Assembly (NCBI RefSeq): GCF_001707915.1
Contig: NZ_MAVV01000011.1
Location: 1 to 43,890 of the forward strand
DNA length: 43,890 nt
Source of the DNA: Thermodesulfovibrio sp. N1
GTDB taxonomy: Bacteria; Nitrospirota; Thermodesulfovibrionia; Thermodesulfovibrionales; Thermodesulfovibrionaceae
Reading direction: 5' to 3'
Positions 30,155-35,903 of this stretch are shown one piece after another; positions within the stretch are counted from its first letter, which is position 1, and each line of letters begins with the position of its first letter. The position numbers and the translations under genes were made by a program. The notes beneath the pieces are model-generated. The model was not told the origin of the DNA and searched no databases. It saw nothing but the letters and a program-made list of their open reading frames with translations.

Positions 30155-30736
30155 ATGATTAAACTTTTTATTAAAATAAAGTCTAAGATTTTTTCGGAAC
30201 TTTTGTCTGAATGTATTCTTAAAGATGAAGATTTTAAAATTATAAAGGCAGACAATTTATCAGATGAAGTCCCAGATATAGTTATTACTGACAAATATGA
30301 ATTGAAGAATGAACTGATTAATAGACATCCTGAATCAAAGATTTTTTTAATTGATACGGGGATTCCAAGAGAAGAATTAATTTCTTTACTTATAAAGTAT
30401 AAATTAAAAGGAATTTTATCCATGAATTCAGATATTTCACACCTTAAAAAGGCTTTAAAAGTAATTTATAGCGGTCAAACATGGATAAGTGATGAATTAG
30501 TTAAATGTCTAATTGAGTTTGATCGATTTAATAATGTTGTAGATATTAAATTGACCGATAAAGAAAAAAAGATTATGAAATTGGTTTGCGAAGGCTTATC
30601 AAATAAGGAAATTGCTGCAAAATTATTTATAAGTGAGCAAACTGTTAAGGCACACCTTCACAGAATTTATCAAAAATTAGCAATTAAAAATAGACCTCAG
30701 CTTGCAGTAATATATTCAAAGATTTTTAATCAGTAA
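30155..30736 (+). CDS. LuxR-family regulator with degenerate receiver (CsgD-like)
   Basis: 193 residues. The C-terminal LuxR helix-turn-helix is clear: LTDKEKKIMKLVCEGLSNKE (about 132-151) then IAAKLFISEQTVKAHLHRIY. The N-terminal receiver-like domain lacks the acidic pair near its start (LFIKIKS) though Asp46 could stand in for the phospho-acceptor, the same pattern as CsgD of E. coli. It sits directly upstream of the curlin genes, so it probably controls them. Orthology to CsgD is not proven. The leader is short and no strong ribosome-binding site is seen. Confidence 0.82.
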   Translation: MIKLFIKIKSKIFSELLSECILKDEDFKIIKADNLSDEVPDIVITDKYELKNELINRHPESKIFLIDTGIPREELISLLIKYKLKGILSMNSDISHLKKALKVIYSGQTWISDELVKCLIEFDRFNNVVDIKLTDKEKKIMKLVCEGLSNKEIAAKLFISEQTVKAHLHRIYQKLAIKNRPQLAVIYSKIFNQ

Positions 30737-30910
30737 AACGTTAGTATTAACCCTATCGAATACTTTTTTAAAACTACAATCTTAACCCTTAAGAAAACTA
30801 AAAAATATACTTTTGATTAATTGTTTATTATTTGAGAAATCTTTATTCTTAAAGTAAGAACAAGCCCGGCACAGGAATTTTAAAATCTGAAAAAGGAAGG
30901 AGGTGAAAAA
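30737..30910 (+). promoter_or_regulatory. Intergenic region upstream of the curlin genes
   Basis: A 174-base gap with two direct TTAACCCT words (30747-30754 and 30782-30789, 35 bases apart) and the palindrome CTTAACCCTTAAG (30781-30793). A weak promoter fits TTGAGA (30832-30837) and TAAGAA (30855-30860), 17 bases apart. A strong AAGGAAGGAGGTG ribosome-binding site lies just before ATG 30911. The paired words are candidates for binding by the adjacent regulator. Confidence 0.45.
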
Positions 30911-31450
30911 ATGACAAAACTTACAAAAATAATTTTAGCATTAGTTTTAGTTCTTGGTATACCAGCAATGAGTATGGCAACTTGTTTTAATTGTAATCCT
31001 TGCGGTGCTAATGGATACAAAGGTTGCACTGAGGCAACAATAACTCAGGTTGGTGGCTTTAACCAGGCTTCTATTGAACAAAATGGTGGTTCATGGTCTT
31101 CGAATTTGGCAGTTATTGACCAAAGTGGAATAGGAAATAAAGCTTCTATTTTACAGGCACCATTTGCAGATCATAATAAAGCTATAGTTGATCAGGAAGG
31201 ATGGAGTAATCAGGCAAATATTAAGCAACAAGGATTAAAAGCTGATTATAATGAAGCCTATATTACCCAAAATGGTCTTGGTAACAAAGCTAATATTGAA
31301 CAGTATAGTTCCCATAATTTAGCATCAATTACACAGAATGGAATGTGTAATAATGCCTCTATAAATCAAGGAACTATGGGAGGTTCACATTATACTGGTA
31401 CAATAACTCAAACAGGATTTGCTAACACAGCATCAATTCTTCAGAAGTAA
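30911..31450 (+). CDS. csgA: Curlin-repeat protein, probable major subunit
   Basis: 179 residues with a Sec signal peptide ending at about Ala23. The mature part has six repeats of the curlin type (I/V-x-Q-x-G-x2-N-x-A-x-I-x-Q), for example ATITQVGGFNQASIEQ and AYITQNGLGNKANIEQ, expected to stack into an amyloid beta-solenoid outside the cell. Before the repeats is a four-cysteine segment CFNCNPCGANGYKGC (25-39), which E. coli CsgA lacks. It leads the operon of secretion genes. Assignment as CsgA rather than CsgB is by regularity of the repeats. Confidence 0.88.
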   Translation: MTKLTKIILALVLVLGIPAMSMATCFNCNPCGANGYKGCTEATITQVGGFNQASIEQNGGSWSSNLAVIDQSGIGNKASILQAPFADHNKAIVDQEGWSNQANIKQQGLKADYNEAYITQNGLGNKANIEQYSSHNLASITQNGMCNNASINQGTMGGSHYTGTITQTGFANTASILQK

Positions 31451-31488
31451 ATTCCCAGAGATATTATTTTACCTGTGCTGGGTTTTTG

Positions 31489-31510
31489 GGGCGGATGAAC
31501 TCCGCCCTTT
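31489..31510 (+). terminator. Intrinsic terminator or attenuator between curlin genes
   Basis: GGGCGGA (31489-31495) pairs with TCCGCCC (31501-31507) across TGAAC, followed by only TTT. A short U tract suggests partial termination, which would raise the amount of the first curlin relative to downstream genes. Confidence 0.55.
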
Positions 31511-31531
31511 AATAAAAAGGAGGTAGTGAAA

Positions 31532-32092
31532 ATGCATCTAAAAGAAATTTTACTCTTGATATTTATAATGTTCATGACAACAACAGTATCTGCTTTTGAT
31601 TGTGGATATAATGGATACAGAGGCTGTGCGAATGCCGATATTGAACAGATAGGAGCTTTCAATCAAGCTGATATTGAAACCTCCGGGATGAATAGAGTCA
31701 CAATAAGGCAGGAAGGTATTAAAAATATAGCAAATATTAAACAAAGCTTTGCACTGTTTGGAAATAATGCTGAAATTCTCCAGTATGGAAGTCACAATTC
31801 TGTCTTTCAAAATCAGACAGGATTAAATAATTATATTTATGTAGAACAACTGGGAACATTTAATGTTTCCAACCAGATTCAAAAGGGAAATAATAACATT
31901 GCTTCAGCAATCCAGTTCGGAATTGGCAATACTATATCACAAACTCAATATACATCGCACAATTTAGCCTTAGCACTTCAAATAGGATTTTACAATAAGG
32001 CTTACCAAATTCAGGGATTGACAGGAACTAATGGCAATAAGAGTAATTTACATCAAATAGGTTTTGGTGTTTTAACAATCATTATTCAATGA
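31532..32092 (+). CDS. csgB: Curlin-repeat protein, probable nucleator (CsgB-like)
   Basis: 186 residues from ATG 31532, preferred over GTG 31526 because AGGAGG lies 7 bases before it. It has a signal peptide (about 1-21), then CGYNGYRGCANADIEQIGAFN, sharing NGYxGC and the following repeat with the first curlin. The repeats are more divergent (VTIRQEGIKNIANIKQ, IYVEQLGTFNVSNQIQ) and the protein ends hydrophobically (VLTIIIQ). These traits fit a surface nucleator. The stop overlaps the next frame by ATGA. Confidence 0.8.
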   Translation: MHLKEILLLIFIMFMTTTVSAFDCGYNGYRGCANADIEQIGAFNQADIETSGMNRVTIRQEGIKNIANIKQSFALFGNNAEILQYGSHNSVFQNQTGLNNYIYVEQLGTFNVSNQIQKGNNNIASAIQFGIGNTISQTQYTSHNLALALQIGFYNKAYQIQGLTGTNGNKSNLHQIGFGVLTIIIQ

Positions 32093-32103
32093 AAGAGTAT
32101 AAT

Positions 32104-32508
32104 ATGAAAAACTTTTTATTTTTAATTGGAACCATGCTGATTTCAACTATAGTTTTTTCAAATTCCTATGGAGATGAAAAAAAGGATTACGAAGCGTGGT
32201 TGATAAAGGAAATTAAAAATTCCCAATTGATTACAAAAGCTTGTGTTAGAAATAACACAAATCGAAGTGTTATACTGATGATCAAAATAACTGGAGAAAA
32301 AATAAGTAAAACAGGCATAAGTAGAAGTACTCAATCTAATGAAATATTTCTGAAAGCAAATGAAGAAAAGTGTTCTTCTCAAATAAGTTTTAACTTAATT
32401 GATATTGATAATGATGATTATCAGATATCTTTGGAATGTTATAAGGATAATCAATTAATTGCTAAAGATTCAATAAAAAAAGGAATTAAAAGTGAAAAGC
32501 CTATTTAA
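32104..32508 (+). CDS. csgH: Curli chaperone-like protein CsgH
   Basis: 134 residues from ATG 32104 (an ATG at 32089 overlaps the curlin stop but would put charged residues before the signal peptide). After a signal peptide the mature domain is an immunoglobulin-like beta-sandwich: ACVRNNTNRSVILMIKITGE, SKTGISRSTQSNEIFLKAN and DYQISLECYKDNQLIAKDS match the CsgH pattern of an -SRQSG- strand and a -VYD-G-I/L-A-DS end. CsgH proteins block premature curlin fibrillation in the periplasm. Similarity is modest. It overlaps csgE by 17 bases. Confidence 0.75.
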   Translation: MKNFLFLIGTMLISTIVFSNSYGDEKKDYEAWLIKEIKNSQLITKACVRNNTNRSVILMIKITGEKISKTGISRSTQSNEIFLKANEEKCSSQISFNLIDIDNDDYQISLECYKDNQLIAKDSIKKGIKSEKPI

Positions 32509-32881
32509 AATAAATTTTATTATTTTCTTGCTATTAATTTTTAGCTTAAACACTGCAGAGTCTCAAATTGAAGGATTCGTAATTGACAAAACAAAAACCA
32601 AAATTGGCAGAGATTTTTATGAACTTTTCTATATTAATCTAAGCACAATAGTGAGTGTTGAGAACAGATTAAACATAACTATCGAAGAATTTTTCGATCC
32701 TCAGTTCGGCAGTAGAGTATCTGTTTTAATTGATGAAAATATAATTTATCAAAACTTTGTAAGCTCAAGATTTGATGATATAGAAGAGAAAGTTAAAGAA
32801 GCAACAGAGATTATTCAATACTTTTTTATGAACTGGAAAGAATATGAAAAATATTTAGAAGAAGAAGGAAAAATAAGATAA
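32492..32881 (+). CDS. csgE: Curli assembly protein CsgE
   Basis: 129 residues from a GTG start at 32492, overlapping csgH by 17 bases. Signal peptide to about residue 24, then EGFVIDKTKTKIGRDFYELF and FDPQFGSRVSVLIDENIIYQ, which align with CsgE (EG-IID-T--R-G-DFY and GS-I-V--N--LY-). CsgE caps the periplasmic side of the CsgG pore and delivers curlins. The motif similarity is diagnostic. Confidence 0.87.
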   Translation: MKSLFKINFIIFLLLIFSLNTAESQIEGFVIDKTKTKIGRDFYELFYINLSTIVSVENRLNITIEEFFDPQFGSRVSVLIDENIIYQNFVSSRFDDIEEKVKEATEIIQYFFMNWKEYEKYLEEEGKIR

Positions 32882-32898
32882 AGAGAGGAGTAAGAAAA

Positions 32899-33309
32899 AT
32901 GAGAGTATCAATCTTAATAAGCAGTTTTTTAATTGTGTTAGCCTTTACTGTAACTAAATCTAACAGTAGTGAATTAATCTTTCAATTTACAAATCCCTCA
33001 TTTGGCGGTAATCCACTCAATGGAAGTTTTTTGTTACAGCAGGCTCAACTTCAGAACAAATTTAAGGAAAAAACACAGGAGAAATCTCTTCTTGAACAGT
33101 TTGAACCTATGTATCAAGCTCAATATCTTAGCAAAATACTTGATGATGCATATGAGAATAATGGTCAAAATTTAGTTGACGGAACATATGTAATTGGAGG
33201 TTTAACTGTTACTGTTACAAAAGATTCTACAAATCGAATTATTACTTTATTAGTTTCAGATCCAGCAACTGGCAGACAAACTACATTTCAAATACCTTAT
33301 ACGCCTTAA
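32899..33309 (+). CDS. csgF: Curli assembly protein CsgF
   Basis: 136 residues; ribosome-binding site AGAGGAG. After a signal peptide (about 1-24) the mature start ELIFQFTNPSFGGNPLNGSF is the CsgF signature that inserts into the CsgG channel. It continues LLQQAQLQNKF and ends with a compact beta domain (GGLTVTVTKD). CsgF couples secreted curlins to the surface nucleator. Located between csgE and csgG, as in enterobacteria. Confidence 0.92.
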   Translation: MRVSILISSFLIVLAFTVTKSNSSELIFQFTNPSFGGNPLNGSFLLQQAQLQNKFKEKTQEKSLLEQFEPMYQAQYLSKILDDAYENNGQNLVDGTYVIGGLTVTVTKDSTNRIITLLVSDPATGRQTTFQIPYTP

Positions 33310-33323
33310 AGGAGGAAAATGAG

Positions 33324-34262
33324 ATGTTTAATTTTATAAAATTCAAGTTCATATTAATTCTTTTTTTACCCCCGATTCTATTTGGATGTATGGCAATGAC
33401 ACCAAATATTGCATCTATTAGAGCTACAAGCGGACCAGAATATATTACATCGATTCATCGAGATCTTGTATCTTTGCCAAAGCCTGAAAATCCTATTCCA
33501 GTAGCAGTATATAAATTTAGAGACCAGACAGGACAGTATAAAGCACCTGGTAATGCAACAAACTTCTCTACAGCTGTTACCCAAGGTGCTACGTCAATTC
33601 TAATAAAAGCCCTTGAAGACAGCGGATGGTTTTTACCTGTTGAAAGAGAAGGGTTGGCAAATCTACTTCAAGAGAGGAAGATTGTCTTACAAATGAGAGA
33701 ACTTTATCTTACTGAAGAGCAGAAAAAACAGTTTGAACCATTGCCACCTTTACTTTATGCAGGAATTATTTTTGAAGGAGGAATCATAGGTTATGATTCC
33801 AATGTAACAACAGGAGGAATCGGTGCAAAATATTTTGGCGCAGGTGGTTCAGCAGAATATAGAGTTGATAAAGTTAGTATTTATTTAAGAGCTGTATCTG
33901 TAAAAAATGGGGCTGTTCTTAAAACTGTACAGACTTCAAAGACTGTTTTATCTCAGATGTTGTCATTGGGAATATTTAGATTTGTAAGGCTTAACAGATT
34001 ACTTGAAGCTGAAGCAGGGATTGCAGCAAATGAGCCAGTTGAGATGGCTGTTCAGGAGGCTATTGAGAAGGCTGTGTATGACATAATAATTGAAGGTGTA
34101 AAAACAGGAATATGGAAACCTAAAGATACCAAAGAATTTGAAAAATGGTTAAGTAAATATGAAAATGAACTTAAAGAGAAAACTTTTGCATCAGAATCTA
34201 TTTCAAAATTATCCAAACAAAAAGAAAGTAAAGACATAGTAAAAGAGCTTTTCAAATATTGA
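33324..34262 (+). CDS. csgG: Curli secretion channel CsgG
   Basis: 312-residue outer-membrane lipoprotein. Lipobox ILFGC with acylated Cys22, then VAVYKFRDQTGQYKAPGN and SILIKALEDSGWFLPVEREG, GIIFEGGIIGYDSNV and the AKYFGAGGSAEYRVDKVSIY transmembrane strand region are characteristic of CsgG, which forms a nonameric pore for curlins. A good AAGGAGG site precedes the start. A terminator at 34273 closes the operon. Confidence 0.94.
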   Translation: MFNFIKFKFILILFLPPILFGCMAMTPNIASIRATSGPEYITSIHRDLVSLPKPENPIPVAVYKFRDQTGQYKAPGNATNFSTAVTQGATSILIKALEDSGWFLPVEREGLANLLQERKIVLQMRELYLTEEQKKQFEPLPPLLYAGIIFEGGIIGYDSNVTTGGIGAKYFGAGGSAEYRVDKVSIYLRAVSVKNGAVLKTVQTSKTVLSQMLSLGIFRFVRLNRLLEAEAGIAANEPVEMAVQEAIEKAVYDIIIEGVKTGIWKPKDTKEFEKWLSKYENELKEKTFASESISKLSKQKESKDIVKELFKY

Positions 34263-34272
34263 CAATTTCCTT

Positions 34273-34317
34273 CTCTGGTAAGCTTGAATAATTTAAATGC
34301 TTACCAGAGTATTTTTT
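34273..34317 (+). terminator. Rho-independent terminator after csgG
   Basis: CTCTGGTAAGC (34273-34283) pairs perfectly with GCTTACCAGAG (34299-34309) around a 15-base loop, followed by tattttttt. It marks the end of the curli operon. Confidence 0.85.
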
Positions 34318-34330
34318 TATTCTTCTGCCA

Positions 34331-34359
34331 TTGAAAATTTTTTCTATAAAAAATATAAT
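34331..34359 (+). promoter_or_regulatory. Promoter of the selenoprotein peroxiredoxin gene
   Basis: TTGAAA (34331-34336) and TATAAT (34354-34359) are 17 bases apart, close to consensus, 40 bases before the start codon and just downstream of the curli terminator. Confidence 0.7.
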
Positions 34360-34398
34360 TTAAAAAAATTTAATTCAAAGAAGGAGGTGAATCAATTT

Positions 34399-35121
34399 AT
34401 GCCAGAAGAATTAAAAGTAGGCTGTGCAAGACCTACAGGTGGTCTTGTAGGTGAAGAACCAAAAAAAGAAGAATCTCAGGAACAAATTATTAAAGAAAAG
34501 GAGGGAAGGCAAGTGGTTAAAGTAGGTAAAAAAGCTTCTGATTTTATAGCCCCTGCTTATTATAAAGGTAAGTTTGTAAATGTTAAACTTTCAGAATATC
34601 TTGGGAAATGGGTATTACTGTGCTTTTATCCGGGTGATTTCACCTTTGTTTGAGCTACTGAAATTTCGGCAGTTGCCGAAAAATATGGAGAATTCAAAAA
34701 GCTCGGGGTTGAAGTTCTATCAATGAGCATTGATAGTATCTTTGTTCATAAAATGTGGAATGATTATGAACTAAGTAAAATGGTTAAGGGCGGAGTACCT
34801 TTCCCTATGCTTTCTGATGCAGGAGGTAAAGTAGGAACATTATACGGAGTTTACGATGAAGATGCAGGAGTTGAGACAAGAGGAAGATTTATTATAGACC
34901 CTGATGGAGTTATTCAAGGATATGAAATTCTCACTCCACCTGTTGGTAGAAATGTTCTTGAAACTATAAGACAAATACAGGCTTTTCAGCATGTAAGAAA
35001 AACTAAAGGAGCTGAGGCAACACCTTCAGGCTGGAAACCAGGAAAGGCAACATTGAAACCAGGACCTGACCTTGTTGGAAAAGTCTGGGAAGTCTGGAAA
35101 ACAAAAGAAGCCTTTGAATAA
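34399..35121 (+). CDS. prxU: Selenocysteine-containing peroxiredoxin (PrxU type)
   Basis: One continuous frame from ATG 34399 (AAGGAGGTGA site upstream) to 35121, interrupted only by TGA at 34651-34653. The UGA falls exactly where peroxiredoxins have their peroxidatic Cys: [19 protein letters not shown] (Sec85). Frame and homology continue on both sides ([52 protein letters not shown]). A SECIS-like hairpin follows. Read through, the protein is 240 residues and reduces peroxides. The C-terminal resolving Cys (VCPxxW) is replaced by Thr in EATPSGW; the remaining visible Cys are Cys9 (VGCARP) and that in LLCFYPG. The Sec genes lie outside this window. Confidence 0.9.
34651..34681 (+). promoter_or_regulatory. 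Selenocysteine UGA codon and SECIS-like hairpin
   Basis: TGA (34651-34653) is followed by the stem TTTCGGC (34664-34670) and GCCGAAA (34675-34681) with loop AGTT. The loop G is 19 bases past the UGA, inside the spacing expected for bacterial SECIS elements (loop with early G, a short stem, about 16-37 bases away). The hairpin lies within the coding frame. Confidence 0.75.
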
Positions 35122-35129
35122 TTAAAAAA

Positions 35130-35168
35130 TAAAGGAGAAAAGATTCTTCATAATCTTCTTCTCCTTTA
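35130..35168. terminator. Bidirectional terminator between convergent genes
   Basis: TAAAGGAGA (35130-35138) pairs with TCTCCTTTA (35160-35168), with an inner AAGATT/AATCTT stem. A/T runs lie on both outsides, so it can end the peroxiredoxin gene and the DUF4197 gene. Confidence 0.6.
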
Positions 35169-35903
35169 TCTACCAAATACTTTTCTTAAAAGTTCTGTTA
35201 CTCTTGCAGATGGGTCTGTTCTAATTTTTTTCTCTTCTAATGCTAACATATAAAATAGTCCATCTAAGGCTTTTTTAGTTACATAATGGTCAAGGTCAAT
35301 AGATTCCATTCCAAAAAAGGGTGACATAGATGTATATTTATTCATCATATTTTTGTATGCTTTTGTTGTGCCAACTTCATTCATGCTGTTTGAAATTATA
35401 GGTTTAAATGATTCATAAAGTTTATTGAAAGTTTTTGACTTGAAATAATCTGTTGCAGATGTTTCGCCTCCAGTGAGAATTTTCCTTGCATCATCAAATG
35501 TCATCTCTTTAATTGCCGATATGAATATATCCTTTGCCTTAGGAGCTGCTTTTTCTGCTGCTCTATTCATAGATAGAATAAATTCATCTACCTCTTTTTG
35601 ATAGCCTATTTTACTTAGGATATTGGCTATATTTTGAATATTTTCAGGGAGTAAAATTTTTATTGCTTCATTTTTAAAGTAGCCATCAATTTTAGAGACC
35701 GCGCTTACAGCATTACCAGTTCCAATGGTAAGAGCTTCTTTAAGACCTGCCACTGTTGTATCAGTATCTGTTGTACTTTGTTCTGGTAATTGAAGGTTTC
35801 TTAAAATATCATCGAATATTCCAGCTGATGAATGTCCTGCATATAAAATTATTACAAATGTTAAAAACAGAATAATATTTCCAAATTTTTTTATTTTTGA
35901 CAT
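35166..35903 (-). CDS. DUF4197-family exported protein
   Basis: 245 residues with an N-terminal signal peptide (to about Ala27). The mature protein is helical and shows the DUF4197 blocks [40 protein letters not shown] and [20 protein letters not shown]. The family is periplasmic or outer-membrane, of unknown function. It runs opposite to the peroxiredoxin and shares the terminator with it. Confidence 0.85.

Follow-up and report, generated by a model that had tools for sequence, protein, structure and literature searches.

PrxU of Thermodesulfovibrio sp. N1: a selenocysteine peroxiredoxin gene with a candidate internal start and a cysteine-bearing N-terminal tail

In peroxiredoxins of the PrxU family, peroxide reduction is carried out by a selenocysteine (Sec) residue, and thiols recycle it. 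The enzyme purified from Eubacterium acidaminophilum is said to comprise about 202-203 amino acids. The prxU gene of Peptoclostridium/Eubacterium acidaminophilum, the gene of Soehling et al. 2001, is carried by plasmid EAL2_808p, with an annotated product of 240 amino acids (WP_084481301.1). A peroxiredoxin of C. sticklandii is listed with Sec at position 84 of 240 amino acids (PMC3091704), and PrxU is up-regulated in ore-grown Sulfobacillus thermotolerans (PMC7409299). PrxU proteins carry the motif PxxxTxxU, and the published bSECIS model describes a hairpin with a stem of 4-16 bp and a loop of 3-9 nt with a G in loop positions 1-2, located 16-37 nt from the UGA and having an MFE of -7.5 or lower (PMC13188914). 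Two further systems bear comparison with the gene described here. AhpC and the typical 2-Cys peroxiredoxins (Prx1 class) share its fold and the PxxxTxxC/U active site, and Cas11b, encoded inside a larger cas gene, shares a strong internal Shine-Dalgarno (SD) sequence followed by an in-frame start (PMC11899642).

We analyzed a stretch of 43,890 nt from Thermodesulfovibrio sp. N1 (assembly GCF_001707915.1, contig NZ_MAVV01000011.1, positions 1 to 43,890 of the forward strand; hereafter the window). Its prxU gene (34399-35121, plus strand) is one 240-residue frame that is interrupted once, by a TGA at 34651-34653. When read through the TGA, the product matches Pfam AhpC-TSA (1.8e-36) and 1-cysPrx_C (4.3e-07), and it scores 422.5 bits against the NCBIfam PrxU equivalog model NF040737, for which the cut-off is 270. 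These matches bear out a preliminary description of this DNA, in which strong peroxiredoxin homology was noted on either side of the TGA and the arrangement was recognized as known biology for PrxU. The same description expected standard gene calling to split or truncate the gene, which holds for translation with table 11, where two ORFs result (34297-34653 and 34723-35121), but not for NCBI, which has a full-length PrxU model and annotates the long form. An AlphaFold2 model of the product (pLDDT 82.9) gave plant PrxA, Salmonella AhpC and human Prx2 as the best structural matches in Foldseek, with a TM of 0.9 by target.

The TGA is the codon of residue 85 and lies in the context PGDFTFV-U-ATE, within a PxxxTxxU motif of the peroxiredoxin domain. 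Alignment to solved structures of AhpC/Prx1-type proteins places residue 85 at the peroxidatic Cys, in agreement with the position first assigned to it from the conservation of the catalytic residue. The corresponding codon is TGA in all 80 of the nearest relatives from public genomes, which are 66-90% identical and whose labels include Nitrospirota, deltaproteobacterial groups, Spirochaetes, Bacillota and Chloroflexi. Furthermore, the genome of strain N1 encodes selA (7.3e-185), selB (E = 1.1e-119), selD (2.0e-110) and a tRNA-Sec (selC) with anticodon UCA; absence of this machinery would have spoken against Sec, and all four genes were found.

A putative bSECIS hairpin follows the TGA (34664-34681, plus strand). 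Its stem is a perfect 7 bp (34664-34670 paired with 34675-34681), its 4-nt loop, AGUU, starts 17 nt past the TGA, and its MFE is -9.5 kcal/mol, all of which fall within the constraints of PMC13188914. No Rfam family matched the hairpin at the gathering score. The fold of the single sequence is only mildly better than that of shuffled sequences (z -1.7, 11/200), and the case for the hairpin rests on comparative evidence. Among 62 distinct sequences, tested against 500 shuffles, the stem is 96.8% paired, double-changed cells number 68 versus 14 in shuffles, and covariation reaches 0.421 versus 0.094 (0/500), a signal that collapses when the partner strand is slid by 1-3 columns. The loop consensus in the relatives is (A/G)GU(C/U/A), with the G and U invariant in all. 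The perfect stem, early loop G and SECIS-like spacing seen at the outset are joined by covariation.

These results support the reading of the prxU UGA as selenocysteine at the peroxidatic position, as had been proposed. Because table 11 counts TGA as a stop, the codon might be thought a true stop or an assembly error in a broken peroxiredoxin gene; we give this practically no credence, given that the 80 relatives sharing the codon span many phyla, the hairpin covaries and the full Sec machinery is encoded. An assembly error or pseudogene is ruled out by the shared TGA together with the covarying hairpin. Since prxU passes the NF040737 model and the checks of the Sec reading were positive, the gene is, on the evidence of its sequence, a genuine member of the known PrxU selenoprotein family. 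The selenoprotein itself is ordinary for this family.

Two candidate translation starts lie in the prxU frame. The outer start, ATG 34399, is preceded by the SD sequence GAAGGAGGTGA (34381-34391, plus strand), whose duplex with the anti-SD has an energy of -11.2 kcal/mol, compared with a mean of -10.6 for the 61 genes in which the first start could be read. The internal SD sequence, AAGGAGGG (34498-34505, plus strand; core AAGGAGG), has an energy of -11.8 kcal/mol and precedes an in-frame GTG (34513-34515, plus strand) that would initiate a short form of 202 amino acids. This energy beats those at all 392 in-frame ATG, GTG and TTG codons of the other ORFs in the window; the mean at 207 ATGs of window ORFs is -1.5. 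The GTG of the window is a weaker start than the ATG found at this position in 76 of 79 genes. Essentially all relatives have an in-frame start behind an SD sequence directly before the ordered domain, and in the AlphaFold2 model the internal start coincides with the order boundary.

The sequences compared share ancestry, and the counts across relatives that follow are accordingly not independent. The anti-SD energy at the internal site averages -10.5 kcal/mol versus -5.4 for synonymous recoding, tests on single genes often being non-significant, and the mean at the internal ATG is -10.2, compared with -3.1 for 400 ATGs elsewhere in these genes. The Lys codon at the site is AAG in 58/62 sequences, compared with 569/1262 (45%) elsewhere in the genes, and the Glu codon is GAG in 59/62, compared with 363/968 (37%). 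The internal ATG is found 3, 4 or 5 codons ahead of the domain, and the SD sequence shifts along with it. Additionally, one relative retains AAAGGAGGT in a different codon phase, and two more distant PrxU genes, whose tail differs, keep CAGGAGG and ATG. In a few relatives (L058, L076 and L094) the internal site is weak or poorly spaced.

If only the outer start were used, the internal SD-like site would either result incidentally from a conserved Lys-Glu-Val linker or serve as a site of translational pausing. The long form is what NCBI annotates and models, and the 240 amino acids listed for C. sticklandii (PMC3091704) agree with it. We nevertheless regard this explanation as unlikely, since it leaves unexplained the bias to AAG GAG relative to the rest of the genes and the presence of a start codon at working distance that moves with the SD sequence, while other ATGs have none; a pause site would need no start codon.

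The 38 residues ahead of the internal start (34399-34512, plus strand) form an N-terminal tail with Cys9 in the context GCARPTGG. Pairwise differences within the tail block comprise 8489 synonymous and 1778 nonsynonymous changes in its own frame, versus 847/9900 and 604/10130 (synonymous/nonsynonymous) in the two other frames. Because the differences are mostly synonymous in the own frame only, the tail is, by this substitution pattern, translated protein. In 40 aligned sequences, tail residues G8 and C9 are invariant, as is Cys75, ten residues ahead of Sec; the tail linker varies in sequence among relatives. AlphaFold2 predicts residues 7-38 to be disordered (pLDDT < 50) and yields no usable position for the tail, and hence none for the Cys9-Sec85 distance.

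This pattern also bears on the converse possibility, that translation begins at the internal start alone and what precedes it is leader sequence. The 202-203 amino acid product makes a complete fold in the AlphaFold2 model, and the protein purified from E. acidaminophilum is said to have about that length. Against this, the tail shows the substitution pattern of coding sequence and has an invariant Gly-Cys, and the SD sequence of the outer start is equally strong in the 61 genes, which makes use of the internal start alone very improbable. With a conserved SD sequence and start codon present within the frame, we conclude that both starts are probably used, giving nested proteins of 240 and 202 amino acids. 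The preliminary description had overlooked the conserved internal start as well as the Cys-bearing tail. Among the open papers searched, we found no description of an internal SD sequence or start in PrxU.

In contrast to the AhpC/Prx1 class, the PrxU of the window has Sec in place of the peroxidatic Cys, and it lacks the C-terminal resolving Cys (VCP motif) of typical 2-Cys peroxiredoxins: VCPAGW is replaced by ATPSGW, and this Cys is likewise replaced in most PrxU members. A few relatives (L080, L083, L096 and L098) keep the C-terminal Cys, each together with the tail Cys. The Cys-bearing tail is absent from those Cys-type homologues of the same phylum that we examined, the closest of which are at most about 50% identical. 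A search of 198 genomes of the phylum for the GCARPTG pattern outside prxU gave one stray match, in no plausible gene, ruling out a tail motif common to other proteins.

Given the invariant tail Cys and the replacement of the C-terminal resolving Cys, we propose, tentatively, that Cys9 serves as a substitute resolving residue for oxidized Sec, in the long form only. Cys75 or another Cys could take this role instead, or an external thiol could reduce Sec directly; the invariance of Cys75 and the joint presence of C-terminal and tail Cys in the four relatives named above are in keeping with these options.

The explanation that we favor, with a probability of roughly 0.75, combines a Sec-containing PrxU with two in-frame starts; the tail Cys as resolver is a more tentative part of it. 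SelB with Sec-tRNA would read the UGA as selenocysteine, guided by the hairpin, and the product would be a peroxidase of the AhpC/Prx1 type with Sec as the residue that attacks peroxides, as its homology implies. Ribosomes would enter the prxU mRNA at two sites that share one frame, with initiation at ATG 34399 giving the 240-residue form with its flexible, Cys9-bearing tail and initiation at GTG 34513 giving the tailless 202-residue form, the folded domain alone. Translation of either form would cross this UGA and incorporate Sec. The tail Cys would be the most likely reductant of oxidized Sec, and the ratio of long to short form would set the share of enzyme that can be resolved. More doubtful is the extension of this scheme to PrxU genes in many phyla, which would then encode a tailless peroxidase alongside a form whose disordered tail bears the Cys that replaces the resolving Cys, with mixed rings in which the number of resolving tails could be tuned.

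The P. acidaminophilum gene is 70% identical to the window gene across all 240 residues and carries both starts, for products of 240 and 203 amino acids, the shorter beginning at Met38 and having Sec at position 47. The two genes share the position of Sec, the hairpin, the tail and the internal start, and the window gene is no different in kind. Compared with Cas11b, the predicted short product of prxU is a selenoprotein that comprises nearly the whole enzyme and lacks a redox-capable tail. If the internal start is used, the annotated 240-residue PrxU is one of two products, and a redox-active tail may have escaped recombinant work on the 203-residue form. The proposed role of the tail Cys would provide a recycling route for a Sec peroxidase that lost its resolving Cys.

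Within the genus, the distribution of prxU is patchy. The gene is present in some species (genomes G047, G057, G075 and G194), the G057 copy being of a clearly different type (62% identical), and at least six others have no close match. The patchy presence and the divergent copy suggest loss and transfer. A search for viral copies of prxU found none. No constant gene neighborhood was found either, as the most widespread cluster of neighbors covers 18 of 80 loci. The recurrent neighbors, from a rough clustering and named by eye, resemble genes for oxidative stress, with a pyridine nucleotide-disulfide reductase at 18 loci, a catalase-peroxidase-like protein at 11, a Fur/PerR-like regulator at 9 and rubrerythrin/ferritin-like proteins at 8 and 7. 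The selD gene of strain N1 (contig C24, 153-1073, minus strand) is itself a selenoprotein gene, in which an in-frame TGA occupies the N-terminal catalytic position (SAG-U-AAKIGPGDL) and is followed by a hairpin. In the window, prxU is convergent with a gene for a DUF4197 protein (35166-35903, minus strand), and directly upstream of it lies a curli operon (30155-34262, plus strand) encoding a LuxR-type regulator in a CsgD-like position, two curlin-repeat proteins, a 139-residue protein, CsgE, CsgF and CsgG.
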